Assembly (NCBI RefSeq): GCF_900109285.1
Contig: NZ_FNZQ01000003.1
Coordinates: 62,001 to 126,000, forward strand
Source of the DNA: Jannaschia helgolandensis
Lineage (GTDB): Bacteria; Pseudomonadota; Alphaproteobacteria; Rhodobacterales; Rhodobacteraceae
Direction: 5' to 3'
DNA length: 64,000 nucleotides
The position numbers and the translations under genes are program-made. This document shows positions 52,013 to 61,592 of the stretch, in pieces (within the stretch, counting starts at the first letter, position 1; each line of letters opens with the position of its first letter). The notes under the pieces were generated by a model. That model was not told where the DNA came from. It searched no databases and saw only the letters and a program-made list of their open reading frames with translations.

Positions 52013-53595
52013 AACGGCGGACGATTTCGCATCTGGCCCCTTGGTCCGAGATGCGGGGGACCTTCGTCTGGGATGTGCCCGCACGGTTCAACATTGCGGT
52101 CGGCTGCTGCGACAGCTGGGCCGAGGAGGATCCGGATCGCGCGGCCATTGTCGACCTGTCCAACGGACGACGGGTCTGGACATATCGCGACCTGAAAGAC
52201 GCGTCGGACCGTCTGGCGGGGGTGCTGGCGCGCGGCGGCATCGGACGCGGCGACCGTGTCGCGATCCTGTTGCCGCAGCGTGCCGAGGTCATGGTGGCGC
52301 ATCTGGCGGCAATGAAGCTGGGTGCCGTGTCCCTGCCCCTGTTCACGCTGTTCGGGCCGGATGCGCTGGCCTACCGGCTGGCGGATTCGGGCGCACGGGC
52401 CATTGTCGGGGACGCGGAGGGACTGGCGCGGATCGCACCGCTGGACCTGGCCGATCTGACGCTGCGGATCGACGCGGACGATTGGGACCTGTCGGGACCA
52501 CCGATAGCGGAGGTGGCGGACACCGGGGCCGACGATCCGGCGATGATGATCTATACCTCCGGCACGACGGGCACGCCCAAGGGCGTGTTGCACGCGCATC
52601 GGTTCCTGATCGGACATCTGCCCTGTGTCGAGACGGCGCTGGAGGGGTTTCCGGTGGAGGGCGACGTCGGCTGGACCCCGGCGGACTGGGCATGGATCGG
52701 CGGGTTGATGGATCTGGCGATGCCCTGCCTGTGGTTCGGTGTGCCGCTGGTGGCCAAGCGGTTCACCAAGTTCGACGCGGACGCGGCCTGGGCGCTTATG
52801 GTGGCCGAGGGCGTGACCGCCAGTTTTCTGCCACCAACCGCGCTGAAGCTGTTGCGGCGGACGAAAGTGCCGCGCGGTCTGGCCTTGCGCGCGGTCCTGT
52901 CGGGTGGAGAGGCGCTGGGCACGGATCTGCTGGACTGGGGGCGGGATGCCCTTGGCGTTCCGATCAACGAGATATACGGCCAGACGGAATGCAACCTGGT
53001 GATGGCAAGCTGTGCCGGCACGCAGGATCTGCGACCGGGCACCCTGGGGCGCGGGGTGCCGGGGGTCGAGGTCGCGGTTCAGGCAGCGGATGGACAGGAC
53101 GTCAGGGTGGGCGAGACCGGGGAAATCTGCACACGCGGATCGCCTGCGGCGTTCCTGCGATACTGGAACAAGCCGGAGGAAACCGTCGGCAAGTGGCGGA
53201 ACGGATGGCTGAGGACGGGAGACCTCGGGCGGAGAGAGGCCGGTGGAGTCATCACATACATCAGTCGGGACGACGACGTGATAACATCATCGGGATACCG
53301 CATCGGTCCGAGCGAGATCGAAACCTGTCTGACCGGGCACCCCGACGTTGTCATGTGTGCGGTCGTCGGCCTGCCCGATCCGAGGCGCGGTGAAGCTGTG
53401 ACGGCGTTCGTCGTGGCACCGGATCGCGGCCCGGATTTGGAAAACGAGCTGATTTCGAGGGTTTCTGCCCAGATTTCGCCACATATGACACCGAGGTCCG
53501 TGCAGTTTGTGGACAGTCTTCCGATGACGGCCACGGGCAAGATACTGCGGCGAGCGCTGCGGGAATCGGAAAACGAAAGTGACGTTCGAGAATAA
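52009..53595 (+). CDS. AMP-dependent acyl-CoA synthetase (acetyl-/medium-chain type)
   Basis: A 528-residue ATP-dependent acyl-CoA ligase. The A3 phosphate-binding motif MIYTSGTTGTPKGVLHAHR, A5 motif NEIYGQTE, A8 motif GYRIGPSEIE and the C-terminal catalytic Lys in PMTATGKILRR are all present. It would activate a short- or medium-chain carboxylate; chain length is not deducible. The ATG at 52009 overlaps the upstream lipoprotein stop. Confidence 0.88.
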   Translation: MKRRTISHLAPWSEMRGTFVWDVPARFNIAVGCCDSWAEEDPDRAAIVDLSNGRRVWTYRDLKDASDRLAGVLARGGIGRGDRVAILLPQRAEVMVAHLAAMKLGAVSLPLFTLFGPDALAYRLADSGARAIVGDAEGLARIAPLDLADLTLRIDADDWDLSGPPIAEVADTGADDPAMMIYTSGTTGTPKGVLHAHRFLIGHLPCVETALEGFPVEGDVGWTPADWAWIGGLMDLAMPCLWFGVPLVAKRFTKFDADAAWALMVAEGVTASFLPPTALKLLRRTKVPRGLALRAVLSGGEALGTDLLDWGRDALGVPINEIYGQTECNLVMASCAGTQDLRPGTLGRGVPGVEVAVQAADGQDVRVGETGEICTRGSPAAFLRYWNKPEETVGKWRNGWLRTGDLGRREAGGVITYISRDDDVITSSGYRIGPSEIETCLTGHPDVVMCAVVGLPDPRRGEAVTAFVVAPDRGPDLENELISRVSAQISPHMTPRSVQFVDSLPMTATGKILRRALRESENESDVRE

Positions 53596-53833
53596 CGGTT
53601 TATGTGATTTTTGCGGGCCGATGCCCTTGCCAGCAAGGCATGGAGCGCCGATGATGGAGTCGGAAATGTGTAACGTTTCAGTTGCGACAGATTGGCCGCA
53701 GTTGATAATAAACCCGGACAGAACCTTGCGGAATTACCCCTGTCGCAAAGGAGTTATGGCAAGGTTTTAGAGGCCGGATCGCGCGACGCGTGGTGTGCCG
53801 CAGTATTGTAGTCTGATTTATGAGGATATTTTC

Positions 53834-54262
53834 ATGTCCCGACTTTCAAATCTAATCGCGATTTCCGCGATATTCACAGCCGGTGTCGCATCGGCGAACG
53901 GATTCGGCGAATCCGTCTCGTTCCAGTTCCGCAGCCCGGCCGAAAGGCAGATTCTGCTGCAGGGCGAGCAGACACGCCTCAATTACAAGGTTTACGAGGA
54001 CAGCCGCGACGCCGCTGCCGCCGCAGCTTCGGGCGGGCAGACCGGCAATTCGCTTTCGATCACGATCAGTGGCAACGGAGACAATACGATCGACGTCGGT
54101 CAGGACAACACCGGCGATCAGACGATCCAGGAATCCGAGGGTGGATCGACCAATACCATCGGGGGCGAGCCCGCCCCGGCAGCGACGGCATTTAGTTCCA
54201 CCTCCATAGAAGAGGCAGTCGCCGTCATGAACGCCATTCCGGTCTCGGCGGCCGGCGAATGA
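53834..54262 (+). CDS. secreted CsgF-like/curlin-like small protein
   Basis: A 142-residue protein with a signal peptide ending near VASA-NG. The mature N-terminus reads GESVSFQFRSPAERQILL then LNYK, closely parallel to the N-terminal segment of CsgF (TFQFRNP...LLN...NSYK) that plugs into the CsgG pore. The C-terminal half is Gly/Asn/Asp/Gln-rich (ISGNGDNTIDVGQDNTGDQT), like curlin or HfaA repeats. It thus combines a CsgG-docking segment with a fibre-like segment. GAGG precedes the ATG at 53834. It overlaps the CsgG-like gene by 4 bp. Confidence 0.72.
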   Translation: MSRLSNLIAISAIFTAGVASANGFGESVSFQFRSPAERQILLQGEQTRLNYKVYEDSRDAAAAAASGGQTGNSLSITISGNGDNTIDVGQDNTGDQTIQESEGGSTNTIGGEPAPAATAFSSTSIEEAVAVMNAIPVSAAGE

Positions 54263-55152
54263 AATCGCTTCGTTTCCGCGCAAGCATCGTCGCCACTCTG
54301 GTTCTGGCAGGTTGCCAGTCCGCATTGCCGATCCCGTTCAGCGCCCCGACCCCGCAATTCAACGGCACGATCCCGGTTGTCACGGCCACGCCGGCTGATG
54401 CCGCGCTTGAATGCCTGTCCAATTCGTCCGCCGTTCGAAACTCGAACCGCGTCTTTTCCGTCCATATCATCTCGGACCTGACGCAGAAGATCGAAGTCGA
54501 CGAAACGGGCGGGTATATCCCGCGCGATACGGCCGGGATGTTGGTGACCGCGCTTTCTCGGGCCGGTGTCCGGCAGGTGAACCGCGTGAACACGACCGTC
54601 ACCGAATTCGAGATCGCCCGCGCCCGCGAGCAGATCCTGGGTGATGGCCGCGTGACCATCGTTGAAGGCGAGCCGCTCAACTATCGCCCGCTGGAGCGGG
54701 GGTCGCTGCGTGGCTCTGACATCGTCATCGACGGCGCGATCACGCAGCTTGATTTCAACACCTATTCTCGCGGGGCCGAAGCCGGACTGTTCGGACTTTC
54801 CGGCGGACGCCGGAATTTCGCGCTGACGGTAGCGGCGGATCTGCGGGTGACCGATACGCGCACGACCGAGTTGCTGATGGCCGAGGCCTATTCCAAGCAG
54901 GCTGTCGGGGTCGAGGTTTTCGGGTCGATCTTCCGGTTCTTCGGGGACGAACTGTTCGACGTGCAGATCGGATCGCGATCGCAGGAAGGCCTGCACGCGG
55001 GTATCCGGTGGATGCTGGCCGAAGCTGCCTATGACATCGTGTCGCAAACGCTGAACCATGACGGAAGTTGCGATCGCTTCCTGCCGAAATTTCAGGCGCA
55101 GCAGCAGGTTACCGATGCAAGTGTAACCGCCGTCGCGGTGGAGCCGACCTGA
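54259..55152 (+). CDS. CsgG/HfaB-family outer-membrane secretion lipoprotein
   Basis: A 297-residue lipoprotein (lipobox LVLAGC, Cys19). It matches the CsgG family of nonameric curli secretion channels and its relative HfaB: YIPRDTAGMLVTALSRAGV, GSDIVIDGAITQLDFNT, ALTVAADLRVTDTRTTEL, and the C-terminal GIRWMLAEAAYDI. It probably exports the repeat proteins encoded nearby. It overlaps the upstream small gene (ATGA) and the downstream gene (TGATG), forming a tight operon. Confidence 0.86.
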   Translation: MKSLRFRASIVATLVLAGCQSALPIPFSAPTPQFNGTIPVVTATPADAALECLSNSSAVRNSNRVFSVHIISDLTQKIEVDETGGYIPRDTAGMLVTALSRAGVRQVNRVNTTVTEFEIARAREQILGDGRVTIVEGEPLNYRPLERGSLRGSDIVIDGAITQLDFNTYSRGAEAGLFGLSGGRRNFALTVAADLRVTDTRTTELLMAEAYSKQAVGVEVFGSIFRFFGDELFDVQIGSRSQEGLHAGIRWMLAEAAYDIVSQTLNHDGSCDRFLPKFQAQQQVTDASVTAVAVEPT

Positions 55153-55619
55153 TGCGGGCTACGATCGTGATGGCATTTGCCGTCGGACTGGTCTGGGGGC
55201 CGGTCGCGGCGCAGACCACTTTGCCGCCGGTGGAGGAGCGCCCTGCGCCCGAAACCCCGCCTTACGATCCGACGCTTTTCCTTGAATCGATGGTGAATTA
55301 CCGGACGCTTGCCTTCACCTGCGAGCAGACCCTTCCGGGGTCGCCGGTCAACGATTCAGCCGAAATCGGCCGTTTCTTCCAGACGCTTGGCCTGCCCGAG
55401 CCGCAGGGCACGGACGCGCGCCTCAGCCGTTTGGTCAAGCGGCTGGTCCGGTCGCAGGGCGCGTCGATCTGCGGTGAGCGATTGGCCGACAGCGCCCAGA
55501 TCTATGGCAGGCGTGCGGTGGATTATTCCGTCAACAAACCGGAGGAATGGCCCGAGGCGCCGCGAATCAGCGCCGGGCCCTGGTGTGCATCGCAGTCATG
55601 CTCGGAAATCGGGTTCTGA
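55152..55619 (+). CDS. secreted protein of the CsgG-like operon, unknown function
   Basis: A 155-residue protein with a signal peptide (MAFAVGLVWGPVAA). It contains four cysteines (FTCEQT, ASICGER, GPWCASQSC), possibly two disulfides. It has no similarity that I can see to CsgE, CsgC or HfaD. Coupled to the csgG-like gene (TGATG), it may be a periplasmic accessory factor of the secretion system. It is convergent with the 375-residue repeat gene. Confidence 0.68.
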   Translation: MRATIVMAFAVGLVWGPVAAQTTLPPVEERPAPETPPYDPTLFLESMVNYRTLAFTCEQTLPGSPVNDSAEIGRFFQTLGLPEPQGTDARLSRLVKRLVRSQGASICGERLADSAQIYGRRAVDYSVNKPEEWPEAPRISAGPWCASQSCSEIGF

Positions 55620-55656
55620 TACGGGGCGTCGTTTGACATCGATCAAGTGACTGGCA

Positions 55657-56784
55657 TCATCGCTCGATCGTGGCCGCATTGCCGACCTGTGTATGGATGC
55701 CATCGCTGGCCTGAACCCGCTGTTCCTGATCGGCGCGTTGGGTCGCCACGATAGGATCGCCCGAGCGGGAGGAGCCGTCGTTGCGAATATCCAGAAGGTT
55801 CACGATGTTCGTGCTGGAATGGGTATAGCCGGGGACGCCGTTTTCCAGATCGGCCAGGGTCACGCCTTCGAGGTTGTTCTCGACGACCTGGCGACCATCG
55901 GACACCTGCGTCAGGCCGTTGACAATATTCGCAGATACGAAGTTGGCGATGTTCAGACCCGACTGGCTGACGCCGTAGGGCGTCCGGCCGTCAGCCGCAT
56001 TGACGGTGTTCCTTACGATCTGATCGCCCGAGAAGACCCGCGCGACGTTATAGACCTCGTCCGCGATCAGCACGTTGCCGATGTTGGTGCCGGATTGCAC
56101 GATCCGGCCCGGCAGCGACCCGGCCTGATCGAGATTGACCGTGTTCTCGATTTCCTGCGAGGTCTCATCGGGGAAAAGCTGTTCCCCCGATCCGATGGAC
56201 ACGTCAGCGATCACGATGTTCGCGGTATTGCGCCCGATCTGGCTTATGCCACGCAGGCTGCCGGTGCCGCCGCCGATTTCGTTGATGACCTGCTGGATCG
56301 CGCCGGGGCCGAAGGCCTGCCGGACGTTGTCCACCTGTTCGACGATAATGATGTTCGCAAGGTTCTCGCCGGTCTGGGACACGGCGAGGGATCCGCCTTC
56401 TTCACTGGCTTCCATGATGTTGATGGCGCGTTGTTCGCCCAGAAAAGTCTGATTGGCCTGGGATACCACGGTGCCGCTTGACAGCAGAATGTTGACCGCG
56501 TTCAGCACCGACTGGTCGACCTGGTCGGCAGAAATGACAGGGGGCAGGCCGACGCCGGAGCCTTCGCCGACTGTCACGAATTCGTCAAACAACTCGGAAT
56601 AGCCGTCCATGTCCGGAGCGTCGTCACCGTTCAGAATGTAGGAGCTGCCCTGAACGACTGCGATGTTGGTGCCGATCTGGTCGCCGGTGGCGATCTGATT
56701 GAGGATGATGCCTTCGGGGCCTTCCGCTACGGCGGCTGTCGTCGTCAGGCCGAGAAGGGCGAGAGCTGTGAGCGTGCGCTGCAT
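55657..56784 (-). CDS. secreted curlin-like repeat protein (375 residues)
   Basis: A 375-residue protein with a signal peptide (LTALALLGLTTTAAVA). It has five or more repeats around residues 136, 181, 230, 274 and 322, each with S-Q-x-G-x-N-x-A-N followed by a hydrophobic strand (for example SQTGENLANIIIV, SQIGRNTANIVIA, QSGTNIGNVLIA), spaced 44-49 residues. This resembles curlin repeats. The start at 56784 lacks a clear ribosome-binding site. It is downstream of the 765-residue repeat gene on the same strand, separated by 82 bp containing a strong hairpin. Confidence 0.72.
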   Translation of the reverse strand: MQRTLTALALLGLTTTAAVAEGPEGIILNQIATGDQIGTNIAVVQGSSYILNGDDAPDMDGYSELFDEFVTVGEGSGVGLPPVISADQVDQSVLNAVNILLSSGTVVSQANQTFLGEQRAINIMEASEEGGSLAVSQTGENLANIIIVEQVDNVRQAFGPGAIQQVINEIGGGTGSLRGISQIGRNTANIVIADVSIGSGEQLFPDETSQEIENTVNLDQAGSLPGRIVQSGTNIGNVLIADEVYNVARVFSGDQIVRNTVNAADGRTPYGVSQSGLNIANFVSANIVNGLTQVSDGRQVVENNLEGVTLADLENGVPGYTHSSTNIVNLLDIRNDGSSRSGDPIVATQRADQEQRVQASDGIHTQVGNAATIER

Positions 56785-56814
56785 GGGAAGATACCGATTT
56801 TGAGGGGCGGGGGA

Positions 56815-56841
56815 GGAATGGCGGCGGGGTGCCGCCATTCC
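56815..56841 (-). other. intercistronic hairpin between the two repeat genes
   Basis: A perfect 11-bp inverted repeat (GGAATGGCGGC / GCCGCCATTCC, 5-nt loop) lies just after the stop of the 765-residue gene. It has no T-run, so it looks like a processing or attenuation element that could lower expression of the following gene. Confidence 0.6.
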
Positions 56842-56866
56842 GATTGATCTATCGTGGTGCCCTAGA

Positions 56867-59164
56867 TTACGGGACCGACGGCGGCGGGTTGCTGATCGAG
56901 TTCGCAACGTTGGTCGCGGCCTGCGTCACATTATTGATCGTATCGGCGTCGTAGAGACCGTTGCCGGCGAGTTGGAAGCCGGAGTAGGACTGCGAGACTT
57001 CCAGACCGCCGAGGTCGGGCAGCGTCTTCACGGTCACCAGGTTCGCGGCGTTGACCGCAGTCTGGGTCAGACCGCTGACGGTCCCGGCCGAGTCGAAGAA
57101 CGGAGCCGAACCAGTCGAACCGGAGTAGTTCACGAGGTTACCCGCGATCTGGGCGCCGTTGATGACTTCCTGCGACAGGGTTCCGCGCAACGCGTCCAGC
57201 GTGGCCAGGTTTACCGCGTTGGTGGCGGTCTGGGCCGCAGTCGTCACACCGAACTTGCCGAACTCGACATAGTTCAGTGCAGCCTGACCATTCAGGAAGC
57301 CGGTCATGTCGGCCGTCTGGGTCAGGGTCGCCGAGGCTTCGACGTCATCCAGCGTGGCCGAGTTGGCAACGTTGGTCGCAGCCTGCGTCAGGTCCGAGAT
57401 GCCACCTTTCGATGCATCGACATCAACGACAGTGTTGATGGCCAGCTGTCCAAGGCCCGAGACGGACTGGTCCAGCGAGACATTGACGTCCTGCAGCGTC
57501 GCGAGGTTCGCGGCGTTGACGGCGGTCTGGTTGACGTTCGCGACACCGGTCACTTCATCGCCCCCGATCGGCGATGCACCGATGTTGTTGGCGGCAATCT
57601 GGGTCGCATCAATCACCTCTTGATCGAGCGTTTCGATCTCGAGCCCGTCACCGGCAGCAGACACGCTGTTGGCGACGTTGGTCGCTTCCTGAGTGGCTGG
57701 TATCGCTTCCATAGTGACTGGATCAACCTCGTTACCTGCGACCGAACCGATTACCAGAAGTGCCTCGTTCGTTGCAAGCTGATCAACGTCTTCGACGGTC
57801 TGGTCGATATCACCGCCGACAGTCATCAGCGTCGCGAGGTTCGCGGCATTGACGGCGGCCTGAGTCGAGTTCGAGATGCTCAGGACACCGTCCAGAGTGT
57901 TTCCGGCCGTCTGCGACGAGTCGCCGAGGGTCTGGGACACATTGCCACCGACCGTACCGGCGATATCAAGACTGTTGACCACGTTGGTCGCAGCCTGATC
58001 GACGAGGTTGATATTGCCGTCGAAGGCAAAGGCCAGGTTGTCAGCGTCCTGATCCAGATCGTAGGCGTATTGATCGACGTTATCGCCCACGCTTGCGGCC
58101 GTGGCCAGGTTGGCGGCGTTCACAGCGTTCTGTATCATTCCACCGACATCGCCGTCGGCGTCGGCCACGTTGGACGCAGACTGCGACACGGGCTGGGGAT
58201 GGTGCCCGCTCTCGCTGACGCTCTGGATGATGTCGTCATCGACGGCCCCGGCTACAGTGACGCTGTTTGCGACGTTGGTCGCGGCCTGAACACCGTTGAA
58301 GATACCGCCCGTGCTGACTGCAGCGTTCGAAGCAGTCTGAGCCAGATCAGCGACGTCCTGGTTCACATCGTCATCGAGGCTGTCGACAGTGGCCAGGTTG
58401 GCCGCGTTGACCGCGCTTTGATCGAAGGTGAAGATGCTTTCACCGCCGCCGTTGGACAACAGGTTCGACGCGTCCTGCAGGGTGTCATCGACGTCCTGCT
58501 CAAGATGGTTGCCGACGCTGCCGACGATAGTCGCGCTGTTCACCACGTTTGTCGCGGACTGGCTGTTTCCGGCCCCCATGACGATGATGCCCTGGCTGGA
58601 CACTGCCGAGTTGCTGGCGGTCTGGACGGTATCGTCGACATCCTGATCAAGGTCGTTCTGCACACCATCGAGAGTTGCCAGGTTGCCGGCGTTGACGGCC
58701 GTCTGGTTAAAGCTCGTGATGCCGGTCGGGCCCGAGATCGAGTTGATCGCAACCTGCGTGGCCTCGAGATCCTGATCCAGGTCTTCGAGGTTCAGGGCTT
58801 CGATGCTGTTGGCGACGTTGGTCGCGGTTTGCGTGACGTCGTCAAAGGCGCCCGTGAATACGCCGCCCGAGAAGCCGCCTGTCGAAACCAGGCTGTTGAC
58901 AGCGAACTGGCCGAGACCACCGTCACCGGTGCTGGGATCGGTCGTCTGGAGAACGTCATGCAGATCGTCGGCCGTGTAGTTGATCAGGTTGGCTGCGTTG
59001 GTGGCCGCCTGAGATACGGTGGTGCCGTCGAAGTTGATGACAATGGAATTGAGGGCGGCCTGAAGCGCGCCAACGGTTTGGGTGACATCGGTACTTTCGT
59101 GCGCCGCCGTCGCCGGCAGTGCGAGCGCCGATGCGATCGCGGTTGTTGTGAGGAACTTTTTCAT
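56867..59164 (-). CDS. large secreted repeat protein, candidate fibre subunit
   Basis: A 765-residue protein with a signal peptide (LTTTAIASALALPATAA) and almost entirely built from repeats. Type A units (N/T-Q-x-A-V-N-A-A-N-L-A-T-L) occur at about 51, 153, 249, 345, 434, 545, 644 and 700. Type B units (Q-x-A-T-N-V-A-N-S) occur at 111, 201, 293, 389, 491, 593 and 747. The A-to-A and B-to-B spacing is about 96, so A and B alternate every ~48 residues, each followed by a D-Q-x-V-x-D-x-x-Q-x-A-x-N block. The composition (Asn, Ala, Gln, Asp; no Cys) fits a beta-solenoid or amyloid fibre. Not recognised in known families. Confidence 0.8.
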   Translation of the reverse strand: MKKFLTTTAIASALALPATAAHESTDVTQTVGALQAALNSIVINFDGTTVSQAATNAANLINYTADDLHDVLQTTDPSTGDGGLGQFAVNSLVSTGGFSGGVFTGAFDDVTQTATNVANSIEALNLEDLDQDLEATQVAINSISGPTGITSFNQTAVNAGNLATLDGVQNDLDQDVDDTVQTASNSAVSSQGIIVMGAGNSQSATNVVNSATIVGSVGNHLEQDVDDTLQDASNLLSNGGGESIFTFDQSAVNAANLATVDSLDDDVNQDVADLAQTASNAAVSTGGIFNGVQAATNVANSVTVAGAVDDDIIQSVSESGHHPQPVSQSASNVADADGDVGGMIQNAVNAANLATAASVGDNVDQYAYDLDQDADNLAFAFDGNINLVDQAATNVVNSLDIAGTVGGNVSQTLGDSSQTAGNTLDGVLSISNSTQAAVNAANLATLMTVGGDIDQTVEDVDQLATNEALLVIGSVAGNEVDPVTMEAIPATQEATNVANSVSAAGDGLEIETLDQEVIDATQIAANNIGASPIGGDEVTGVANVNQTAVNAANLATLQDVNVSLDQSVSGLGQLAINTVVDVDASKGGISDLTQAATNVANSATLDDVEASATLTQTADMTGFLNGQAALNYVEFGKFGVTTAAQTATNAVNLATLDALRGTLSQEVINGAQIAGNLVNYSGSTGSAPFFDSAGTVSGLTQTAVNAANLVTVKTLPDLGGLEVSQSYSGFQLAGNGLYDADTINNVTQAATNVANSISNPPPSVP

Positions 59165-59736
59165 TGGAGTCTCCGTCCTTCTCTGATGCCGCCGCCAACA
59201 CGGCGACGATCAACCTTCCTGAAGTGGCCGACGGCGTGGAACCGTAGTCGGCAATGTCGACGGACGAGAAGGGACAAAAGAAAGACGACAGGACCCGCGC
59301 CGAGGATGAAATACCGTCGCGAAATCGGACCCGGACGAATCAGTCCGCGGTCGTGTCAGTCGTCCAAAGACCCCCAGGTCAGTCGGAACAGGGAATGATT
59401 TGCATCTGAAACGGGACGAATACAGTCAGGCAAAACCTTACAAGCGCAGTTCGAGGGCCACTTGTGGAGATTATCCACCTGAAATCCTTACCATACTGGA
59501 AGGTTTGCGGTGCCAGGATCGCAGTGGAAACGGTTTGTTCCCGGATAGGTCATGAATAATCATGACATAGCTAATCCTTGAGTCGATAATTATCGGGGGA
59601 TGTGTTAAAGATGAGTTAAGACCAAGGCATTTTCGTGACCTGCGCATTAGCAGGCCGGGGAATGCCGACTATTTGGCCTTTCGGGCGAATTTCCGCCAAC
59701 GACTGAGACGTAATTTGTATTTTCAAAGGTTTTCCT
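59165..59736. promoter_or_regulatory. divergent regulatory region with three palindromes
   Basis: This 572-bp region between the 765-residue gene and the LuxR-type regulator becomes AT-rich from about 59400. It holds inverted repeats GTGGA-N5-TCCAC (59464-59478), GTCATGA-N4-TCATGAC (59549-59566) and CGATAATTATCG (59584-59595). It probably carries both promoters and regulator-binding sites. Confidence 0.6.
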
Positions 59737-60363
59737 ATGAAGCATTTATCCACCCTGTCCACCAATGCTCCCTCCGAAGTCATGATACGCACAGCCCGCC
59801 CTGTTCCGGTGGTTGTCATGTCGCCGTGCGATGCATTTCTGACCGACGTTCAGTGTGCGGCCGAACGGGCCGGACTGGGCGAGGTCCGAAGGATCGATAT
59901 TCATGACTGTGACGAGATCAGCGTCATCGGGAAATCCATAGTCGTTCTTGACCCTGATGCGTTGGATGACCCGGTCAGCGGTGCATCCGACCTGTTGGAT
60001 TGCCCGTCGAACCGTGTCGTGCTTTTTGGCAAGGGATCAGGTCTGATCATCAACCGACATGCCATCCGCCGGGTCGTGGACCGTGACATGGGTCTTGACG
60101 TTCTGGCCATGGCGCTGCGGTCCGTCGCCGCAGATGCCGACAAGGTCGACAAAGCCTGCATTCCGAAGCTGAGCGCGCGGGAACGCCAGGCGCTGCACCT
60201 TTATGGGCGGGGGTTCACGCTTAAGGAAATCGCGCAGCGCCTGGGCATCAGCGACAAATCGGTCGAGACCTACAAGGGACGGGCATGCCGCAAGCTGGGT
60301 CTGAACGGGCGGGCCGAGGTGCTGTCGTATATCGAACCTTTCCTGACGCCTGCGGCGATGTAG
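59737..60363 (+). CDS. LuxR-type transcriptional regulator (CsgD-like position)
   Basis: A 208-residue regulator. The C-terminal LuxR/FixJ helix-turn-helix (LSARERQALHLYGRGFTLKE, then QRLGISDKSVETYKGRACRK) lies at about 143-205. The N-terminal half (about 20-135) is receiver-like in length but without a clear phosphorylatable Asp arrangement. An AAAGG site precedes the ATG at 59737. Divergent from the 765-residue repeat gene, it probably controls that locus, as CsgD does in curli systems; inference from position. Confidence 0.82.
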   Translation: MKHLSTLSTNAPSEVMIRTARPVPVVVMSPCDAFLTDVQCAAERAGLGEVRRIDIHDCDEISVIGKSIVVLDPDALDDPVSGASDLLDCPSNRVVLFGKGSGLIINRHAIRRVVDRDMGLDVLAMALRSVAADADKVDKACIPKLSARERQALHLYGRGFTLKEIAQRLGISDKSVETYKGRACRKLGLNGRAEVLSYIEPFLTPAAM

Positions 60364-60389
60364 CCGGTCAGCGCGTCGTCCGGGCCAAG

Positions 60390-60415
60390 ACGGGTCGCCC
60401 TTTGGTGCGACCCGT
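60390..60415. terminator. bidirectional hairpin between convergent genes
   Basis: Inverted repeat ACGGGTCGC / GCGACCCGT with an 8-nt loop between the convergent LuxR-type and M20 peptidase genes. The T-runs are weak. Confidence 0.6.
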
Positions 60416-60431
60416 CTGCGTCAGGCGCGGA

Positions 60432-61592
60432 TCAGGTCGCAGGCATCCGGCGTTCAACGATTTCGGCCCACCAGCTGCAACCGGCGGGAATTGCCTCGTC
60501 GGTGAAGTCGTATTCGGGATGGTGAACGGGGGCGGTGTCGCCGTTGCCGACCAGGATATAGGCACCGGGCCGTTCCTGCAGCATGAAGGCGAAATCCTCG
60601 CCGCCCATGACAAGGGGGGCCTCGTCGCAGCCACCCGACACCGCGGTTGCGACCTCTGCCGCGAAAGCGGTCTGTTCGTCGTGGTTGACCATCGTGGGAT
60701 AGCTTCGGTGATACGTGACGTCTGCCGAGCCGCCGAATGTCGCGCAGATACCGGCGCTGATGTCCCTGATCCGTTGTTCCGCAAGATCGCGCATCGCATC
60801 GGTCATGGTGCGGACGGTGCCCTTGACCTGCATCCGCTGGGGGATCACGTTGAATGCCTTGGACGACGATTCCAGCGATGTGACCGACACGACGATCTGC
60901 TCCACCGGGTCGGCATTGCGCGATACGATGGTCTGCAAGGCGGTTACGAACTGGGCGGTCATCACGCAGGTATCGACGACTTCGTGCGGTTTGGCGGCGT
61001 GGCCCCCACGGCCTTCCAGCGTGATGTCGAACTGGTCTGTGGCCGCAAAGAACGTGCCGGACCGGATGGAAAAGCTGCCGACGGGGCGACCGGGCCAATT
61101 GTGCATGCCGTAGACTTCCTGGATGTTCCAGCGGTCCATCATGCCATCGTCGCACATCTCCTTGCCGCCGCCGCCGCCTTCTTCGGCGGGCTGGAAGATC
61201 AGGACGACGGTACCGTCGAAATTGCGCGTCTCGGACAGGTATTTGGCGGCACCGACCAACATCGACGTGTGACCGTCATGGCCACAGGCGTGCATCGCGT
61301 TCGGCGTCCTGGAAGAATAATCCAGACCGGTCTGTTCGTGGATCGGCAGGGCGTCCATGTCCGCGCGCAGACCGATCACCTTGCCCGAGCCGGTCTTGCC
61401 CTTGATGACGCCGACAACACCGGTGCGACCGATGCCTTCGACCACTTCATCACAGCCGAAGTCGCGCAGTTTATCGGCGACGATCCTGGACGTGCGGTGT
61501 GTCTCGAACAGGATTTCGGGGTTTTGGTGGAGGTCGTGGCGCCAGGCTGTGATCTCGGGCAGCAGTTCGGCGAAGCGGTTCTTGACGGGCAT
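60432..61592 (-). CDS. M20-family amidohydrolase (hippurate hydrolase/ aminoacylase type)
   Basis: A 386-residue metal-dependent amidohydrolase. Marks are DLHQNPEILFETHRTS, GLRADMDALPIHEQTG, HACGHDGHTSMLVGAA (metal ligands) and FQPAEEGGGGGKEM with the catalytic Glu. The family cleaves N-acyl amino acids such as hippurate; the substrate is unknown. A GGAG-type site precedes the ATG. It lies in the same orientation as the next peptidase gene. Confidence 0.86.
   Translation of the reverse strand: MPVKNRFAELLPEITAWRHDLHQNPEILFETHRTSRIVADKLRDFGCDEVVEGIGRTGVVGVIKGKTGSGKVIGLRADMDALPIHEQTGLDYSSRTPNAMHACGHDGHTSMLVGAAKYLSETRNFDGTVVLIFQPAEEGGGGGKEMCDDGMMDRWNIQEVYGMHNWPGRPVGSFSIRSGTFFAATDQFDITLEGRGGHAAKPHEVVDTCVMTAQFVTALQTIVSRNADPVEQIVVSVTSLESSSKAFNVIPQRMQVKGTVRTMTDAMRDLAEQRIRDISAGICATFGGSADVTYHRSYPTMVNHDEQTAFAAEVATAVSGGCDEAPLVMGGEDFAFMLQERPGAYILVGNGDTAPVHHPEYDFTDEAIPAGCSWWAEIVERRMPAT

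Follow-up and report, generated by a model that had tools for sequence, protein, structure and literature searches.

The 64,000-nucleotide stretch of the Jannaschia helgolandensis genome analyzed here (the window) contains, at positions 53834–60363, a six-gene locus (P0001–P0006) for which the best reading is a new type of system related to the HfaABD holdfast anchor and to curli. We consider it fairly probable that this locus is a self-contained module for secretion and assembly of a surface fiber, belonging to the HfaB branch of the CsgG superfamily. Such a module probably secretes a long, spring-like protein fiber through an outer-membrane pore, and, as far as sequence comparison reaches, its cargo proteins are recognized neither in curli nor in the Caulobacter holdfast anchor. 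The initial annotation had proposed a non-canonical fiber secretion locus of curli or holdfast-anchor type, formed by a coherent set of six genes; that proposal is supported by the conservation of the block and by the affinities of two of its proteins, P0002 for HfaB and P0001 for HfaA.

All six open reading frames (ORFs) are present, as judged from their coordinates and translations. P0001 (53834–54262), P0002 (54259–55152) and P0003 (55152–55619) lie on the plus strand and overlap head to tail, with ATGA at 54259–54262 and TGATG at 55150–55154, an arrangement resembling that of a translationally coupled operon. Facing them on the minus strand are the genes for two repeat proteins, P0005 (56867–59164) and P0004 (55657–56784), spaced 82 bp apart. 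The regulator gene P0006 (59737–60363, plus strand) diverges from P0005 across a 572-bp intergenic region (59165–59736), which from its position is presumed to be the control region. Signal peptides and secreted status are given throughout as manual readings of the N-termini.

The six genes form a conserved module. Among the loci that we read, seven genomes have the block, always with one gene order and orientation; they belong to four genera of the Rhodobacteraceae and comprise three Jannaschia (the window genome, G000; G753; and Jannaschia sp. Os4, G894), Loktanella salsilacus DSM 16199 (G006), Hasllibacter halocynthiae (G058), and two genomes of one further genus. A search with P0002 across 198 genomes of the family matched 15, that is, its own genome, two at 71–76% identity, both of which hold all six genes, and twelve at 25–37%. 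An alignment search with P0003 across 390 genomes of the order returned seven matches, one of them false, and yielded four more complete loci; the match in G710 was dropped, its protein reading, by translation and not by family search, as an ABC sugar-binding protein. Profiles of P0003, P0004 and P0005 converge on the same 6 of the 390 genomes when five weak, partial matches are disregarded. Those of P0005 in G810, G796, G183 and G644 were dropped, as they cover only profile positions 1–22 to 1–56, and no relative was seen in the G796 locus, the one of these four that was inspected. The cluster is thus not confined to this strain, and, apart from weak partial matches, its repeat proteins occur only in genomes carrying P0003, with a CsgG-like gene in all seven.

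Because of this conservation in seven genomes and co-occurrence across 390, we rejected chance assembly of the six genes. The same data bear on the idea that the repeat genes lie next to the CsgG-like gene by coincidence, the repeat proteins leaving the cell by a different route and the lipoprotein serving the envelope in some unrelated way. Proteins with the CsgG Pfam domain do occur outside curli operons, where a survey of curli systems, in the part consulted, takes such matches for paralogs (PMC3521004). Retention of the full block in seven genomes of four genera with differing flanks, together with the co-occurrence, nevertheless makes coincidence scarcely credible.

The system is taxonomically narrow, and its distribution within Jannaschia is patchy: 3 of the 12 Jannaschia genomes in the P0003 search carry it. 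In the window, the locus occupies the gap between an AMP-binding enzyme gene, encoding an acyl-CoA synthetase, on the left and an M20 peptidase gene on the right (53595–60432), and both flanks are the same in G753. The peptidase is present in 20 of 20 Jannaschia genomes; within 1.5 kb of its best match lies the acyl-CoA synthetase in 13, the locus in 2 (G000 and G753), and neither in 5. Copies located elsewhere were covered for the 12 of these 20 genomes that were also in the P0003 search, and the locus of Jannaschia sp. Os4, a genome that belongs to the 13 with adjoining flank genes, does lie elsewhere on the same contig. As the flank genes adjoin in 13 of 20 genomes and have the locus between them in 2, the block appears and disappears as a whole.

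Placement in the HfaB branch derives from P0002, a 297-aa protein recognized from the outset as an outer-membrane lipoprotein of the CsgG/HfaB kind and the putative HfaB-like secretion channel. It matches the Pfam CsgG family (PF03783; E = 7.1e-14, 52.1 bits against a cut-off of 20.8), as the only CsgG-family match in its own genome, and its lipobox cysteine, Cys19, is invariant in 6 of 6 homologs. The best NCBIfam match is HfaB, at 146.3 bits and below the equivalog cut-off of 300, followed by CsgG at 34.8 bits (cut-off 505). We refined this assignment with a tree of 58 channel rows, a quick build supported by Shimodaira–Hasegawa-like approximate likelihood ratio tests (SH-aLRT) and not by bootstrap, in which the labels of other clades come from neighborhoods read for part of their members. 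A fully supported split (SH-aLRT 100) divides the HfaB side of this tree from E. coli CsgG and each of the nine curli-type Rhodobacteraceae CsgG rows; the six intact P0002 homologs fall on the HfaB side, as a single clade (SH-aLRT 100). HfaB proper is a separate clade (SH-aLRT 99) of 19 rows, each over the NCBIfam cut-off, and a further HfaB-side clade, associated with AVGNN-type repeat proteins, is also separate from the P0002 clade (SH-aLRT 84). The P0002 clade groups with another Rhodobacteraceae clade (G065, G077, G149) and G364 at SH-aLRT 86 only. The sequence evidence thus places P0002 on the HfaB side of the CsgG superfamily and not with curli CsgG. In G753, the hfaB-like gene (locus L097, 7572–8574) appears split into two overlapping frames; it is intact in the other six genomes.

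These results weigh directly on whether the locus could be a canonical curli locus, with CsgG, CsgF, CsgA/B and CsgD, that has diverged beyond recognition. The CsgG match of P0002, a CsgF-like N-terminus in P0001 and a LuxR-type regulator in the place of csgD would fit such an origin. However, besides the fully supported branch that separates P0002 from the curli channels and a repeat motif unlike the curlin repeat, the companion families are missing: CsgF (PF10614) is matched in 0 of the 7 genomes with this locus, compared with matches over the cut-off in 8 of 11 Rhodobacteraceae genomes with a distant CsgG, and curlin repeats (PF07012) in 0 of 7 compared with 9 of 11 (the contrast set comprising 11 of the 12 distant-CsgG genomes, with G162 left out). 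The whole-genome search of J. helgolandensis gave no CsgF or curlin-repeat match at E ≤ 0.1, and CsgE, CsgA and CsgB are, as first annotated, unrecognizable by Pfam among the six proteins, the only ones on which the CsgE model was run. We rejected the canonical curli assignment on the channel tree and the lack of CsgF and curlin matches, and a much-diverged curli locus seems very improbable.

The partner of the channel is P0001, a small secreted protein of 142 aa and the putative channel-docked nucleator. In the alignment of seven homologs, a signal peptide is followed by an N-terminal FQFRSP...LL...Q segment and then by curlin/HfaA-like repeats of the form GNSLxI..GxGDNTIxxxQxNxGDQ. Neither Pfam nor NCBIfam contains anything at E ≤ 1 for P0001, the homologs of P0001, P0003 and P0004 scanned one by one in Pfam give nothing over a cut-off, and the alignments of P0001 and P0004 retrieved nothing useful from PDB sequences. 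P0001 shows two resemblances, independent of each other. In a profile comparison (hhalign) with a set of HfaA proteins (14 ORFs, including two duplicates, from 27 loci searched), it matches at a probability of 90.8 and E = 1.2e-6 over 28 columns, in the repeat part only, with a score of 43.8 against a maximum of 20.4 in 100 column shuffles. Among 7950 ORFs drawn from 80 loci, some of them overlapping, the best matches to the P0001 profile are small ORFs beside HfaB, or at most 1 kb away, in three other genomes (E from 4.9e-4 to 7.1e-3). The segment directly after the signal peptide (VSFQFRSP...LL...Q..LNYK) resembles the N-terminus of E. coli CsgF over about 25 residues (E = 0.0038; score 23.1 against a maximum of 19.8 in 200 shuffles). 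P0001 was initially described as CsgF/curlin-like; by sequence it is an HfaA-like protein, and the likeness to CsgF is weak and limited to these N-terminal residues.

The presumed cargo is encoded on the facing strand, where two secreted Asn/Gln/Ala repeat proteins had been noted. P0005 (765 aa), the candidate main β-solenoid fiber subunit, contains 30 QxAxN motifs, compared with a mean of 1.5 and a maximum of 6 in 1000 shuffles, and 16 QxAxNxxN motifs (mean 0.14, maximum 2, again in 1000 shuffles). A short QxAxN and a long QxATNxxN unit alternate about 15 times, at about 45 residues per pair, and the protein has no Cys, no Trp, 0.7% Lys and 0.1% Arg. P0004 (375 aa from ATG), the candidate minor fiber subunit or anchor, has QxGxNxxN units and a weaker enrichment (6 QxAxN against a shuffle maximum of 5; 4 QxAxNxxN against 2). 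The repeats in both proteins thus exceed chance, those of P0004 less clearly. In Pfam, P0004 and P0005 have matches far below the cut-off only (E = 0.02 and 0.091, respectively), and no NCBIfam family is over its cut-off. P0004 is related to P0005 (profile comparison, E = 6.2e-13) and is kept in 7 of 7 loci, and when its profile is run against the 7950 ORFs, HfaA proteins score best (E = 0.0012). Homologs of P0005 are 428–646 aa long; over the resulting range of 428–765 aa, the P0002 channel keeps a steady size of 293–310 aa.

The solenoid fiber subunit of the initial annotation stands as a prediction. In the best of five AlphaFold models, built with seven sequences, P0005 is all-β from residue 27 to 758, with a mean predicted local distance difference test score (pLDDT) of 82.1 and a predicted template modeling score (pTM) of 0.86. 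It is thus predicted to be all-β and solenoid-like, plausibly one continuous solenoid, a reading based on the pattern of strands and on the high pTM and not on coordinates; amyloid character is not part of the model.

The remaining two proteins complete the set as first described. P0003 (155 aa), the putative accessory protein or chaperone, is small, secreted and kept in 7 of 7 loci, with Cys58, Cys108, Cys146 and Cys151 invariant in all seven homologs. Its structure model is helical, at low to medium confidence (pLDDT 68), and nothing matches at E ≤ 1 in Pfam or NCBIfam or, with its profile, among the 7950 ORFs. P0006 is a LuxR-type regulator with a GerE domain (Pfam E = 3.2e-13), likewise kept in 7 of 7 loci; it is CsgD-like in position and helix-turn-helix only.

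Taken together, these parts suggest the following scheme. P0002 would form the outer-membrane channel. The N-terminus of CsgF sits inside the CsgG barrel, and P0001 would similarly cross the P0002 channel, with its FQFRSP segment docked there and its curlin/HfaA-like repeats remaining outside as a site of nucleation and anchoring. P0005 would be exported unfolded and fold outside the cell into a long β-solenoid with Q/N ladders, the main filament, while P0004, as its shorter relative with QxGxNxxN units, could serve as the minor or adaptor subunit joining P0001 to P0005. P0003 may act in the periplasm as a Cys-containing accessory that keeps or delivers the cargo, a CsgE-type role, and P0006 would switch on both divergent units.

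Several observations weigh against this scheme. AlphaFold readily builds solenoids from repeat proteins, and the mean pLDDT of the five P0005 models spreads from 66.6 to 82.1, the four other than the best lying at 66.6–75.5. Foldseek searches matched no solved structure at E ≤ 0.001 with the P0005 model and none in the PDB with that of P0003. P0003 lacks similarity to the CsgE of E. coli (E = 0.79), so that sequence gives no support for identifying it as CsgE, and P0004 is likewise dissimilar to E. coli CsgB (E = 0.41). Comparison with HfaD by hhalign, for which two HfaD sequences were at hand, gave E = 0.32 for P0004 and 0.42 for P0005, inside the nulls from 50 shuffles, and we rejected their identification as HfaD at the sensitivity that this pair allows. 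For the resemblance of P0001 to CsgF, the hhalign probability is 8.8, and E worsens to 0.045 once E. coli CsgF is replaced by a profile that combines it with Rhodobacteraceae CsgF from four of the eight such loci. Export, a fiber and amyloid character are putative, and the locus may instead encode an anchor.

P0005 might also be a secreted monomeric β-helix adhesin that is held at the channel and does not polymerize. It is a single very long chain modeled as all-β, with no evident mode of polymerization, and the insignificant top rows from Foldseek, of which the best is a bacterial self-associating protein (E = 0.69), include β-helix adhesins and S-layer proteins. A polymer would better accommodate the related second subunit, P0004, and the HfaA-like protein, and we regard a monomeric adhesin as unlikely.

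The leading alternative is a holdfast-type anchor, in which the HfaA/HfaB-like proteins and P0004/P0005 would attach a polysaccharide adhesin, once exported, to the outer membrane in the manner of HfaABD in Caulobacter, the solenoid being a tether. The affinities of P0002 and P0001 speak for it, and genes for sugar polymers lie beside the block in 3 of the 7 loci: Loktanella salsilacus has Poly_export, Wzz/GNVR and glycosyltransferase genes directly beside the regulator of the locus (L020, 704–5503), Jannaschia sp. Os4 a glycosyltransferase flank, and carrier G823 sugar epimerase flanks. The genome of J. helgolandensis also has four Poly_export matches, but such matches are common, occurring in 4 of 14 control genomes. 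Against an anchor stand the direct flanks in the window and in G753, acyl-CoA synthetase and M20 peptidase; the scanned flanks of Hasllibacter (two proteins) and G892 (three, one without a family match), in which no polysaccharide gene was recognized; and the lack of detectable HfaD character in P0004 and P0005. The link of the locus to exopolysaccharide is suggestive only, and we hold an anchor to be possible but rather doubtful. Separately, the Loktanella flank set recalls the holdfast export genes of Caulobacter.

Our preferred reading, a fiber module of the HfaB branch, can be set beside other HfaB-side loci that we came across. Clusters in several alphaproteobacterial families (L070–L073, L075 and L076), for which the literature surveyed yielded no description, share with the present locus a CsgG/HfaB lipoprotein, a secreted repeat protein, LuxR-type regulators nearby and, in most, a small secreted protein; they differ in their AVGNN-type repeat motif, the lack of a P0003 match and their separate clade. 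A further Rhodobacteraceae type (L024, L028 and L031), the one grouped weakly (86) with the window's clade, has secreted-looking proteins with repeats resembling (S/T)TALGAVNTG or TTAIGAM. The alphaproteobacterium G212 (L077, L078, L079) has five HfaB-like genes at 141–154 bits, three of them within about 9 kb. In L068 (7700–9046), the C-terminal part of an HfaB-like protein reads as OmpA-type, and after one intervening ORF comes the open frame, 1737 codons long, of a repeat protein, both being readings of translations and not family searches.

We tentatively propose, as a somewhat less than even possibility, that a broad class of alphaproteobacterial fiber secretion systems, for the most part undescribed and parallel to curli, is built around HfaB-side channels. 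Members of this class would retain the channel and an HfaA-like plug and nucleator but replace their cargo entirely. In the Rhodobacteraceae type, a single chain of about 15 double units, very low in Lys and Arg, would then fold extracellularly into a solenoid that is itself the finished filament.

In the literature surveyed, the studied systems of the CsgG superfamily are curli and HfaABD, besides CsgG-like genes of marine phages. The curli survey, in the part available to us, contains no word beginning with "Rhodobacter" or "Hfa" (PMC3521004), and no report joining Rhodobacterales with CsgG was found in the open-access literature, a search that could miss subscription papers. With a compact, conserved third type whose channel, plug and cargo form a clean set, one could test how a plug peptide defines the cargo and whether a solenoid protein of 765 residues can get through a CsgG-like pore. 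In one survey, the top-ranking Roseobacter strain by abundance was a Jannaschia, at 1.88% of a plastic biofilm, a figure that concerns the strain and not the locus (PMC10090131).

Compared with HfaABD of Caulobacter crescentus, as far as that system is covered by the source consulted (PMC6707917), the locus shares the hfaA–hfaB pair in the same order, with the HfaA homolog directly upstream of the hfaB-like P0002 and the genes overlapping, as well as an HfaB-side lipoprotein, a small secreted HfaA-like protein with a curlin-like motif and a large secreted repeat protein. It differs from HfaABD in that P0002 reaches 146 of the 300 bits required for HfaB and belongs to a separate clade, P0004 and P0005 are not detectably HfaD, the repeat genes are on the facing strand, and P0003, a second repeat protein and a LuxR regulator are added. 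Unlike curli, the locus is found in genomes without CsgF or the curlin family, as judged by their models, its channel is on the HfaB side, and P0005 is far longer than E. coli CsgA and built from QxAxN/QxATNxxN double units of about 45 residues. It nevertheless has in common with curli a channel of the CsgG superfamily, a Q/N-rich repeat cargo without Cys, the FQFRxP N-terminal segment of CsgF (in P0001) and a LuxR-type regulator. The two systems are also alike in combining a cargo of variable length with a channel of constant size: in curli, according to the part of the survey consulted, the number of CsgA repeats varies while the size of CsgG is constant (PMC3521004), as is the case here for P0005 and P0002.

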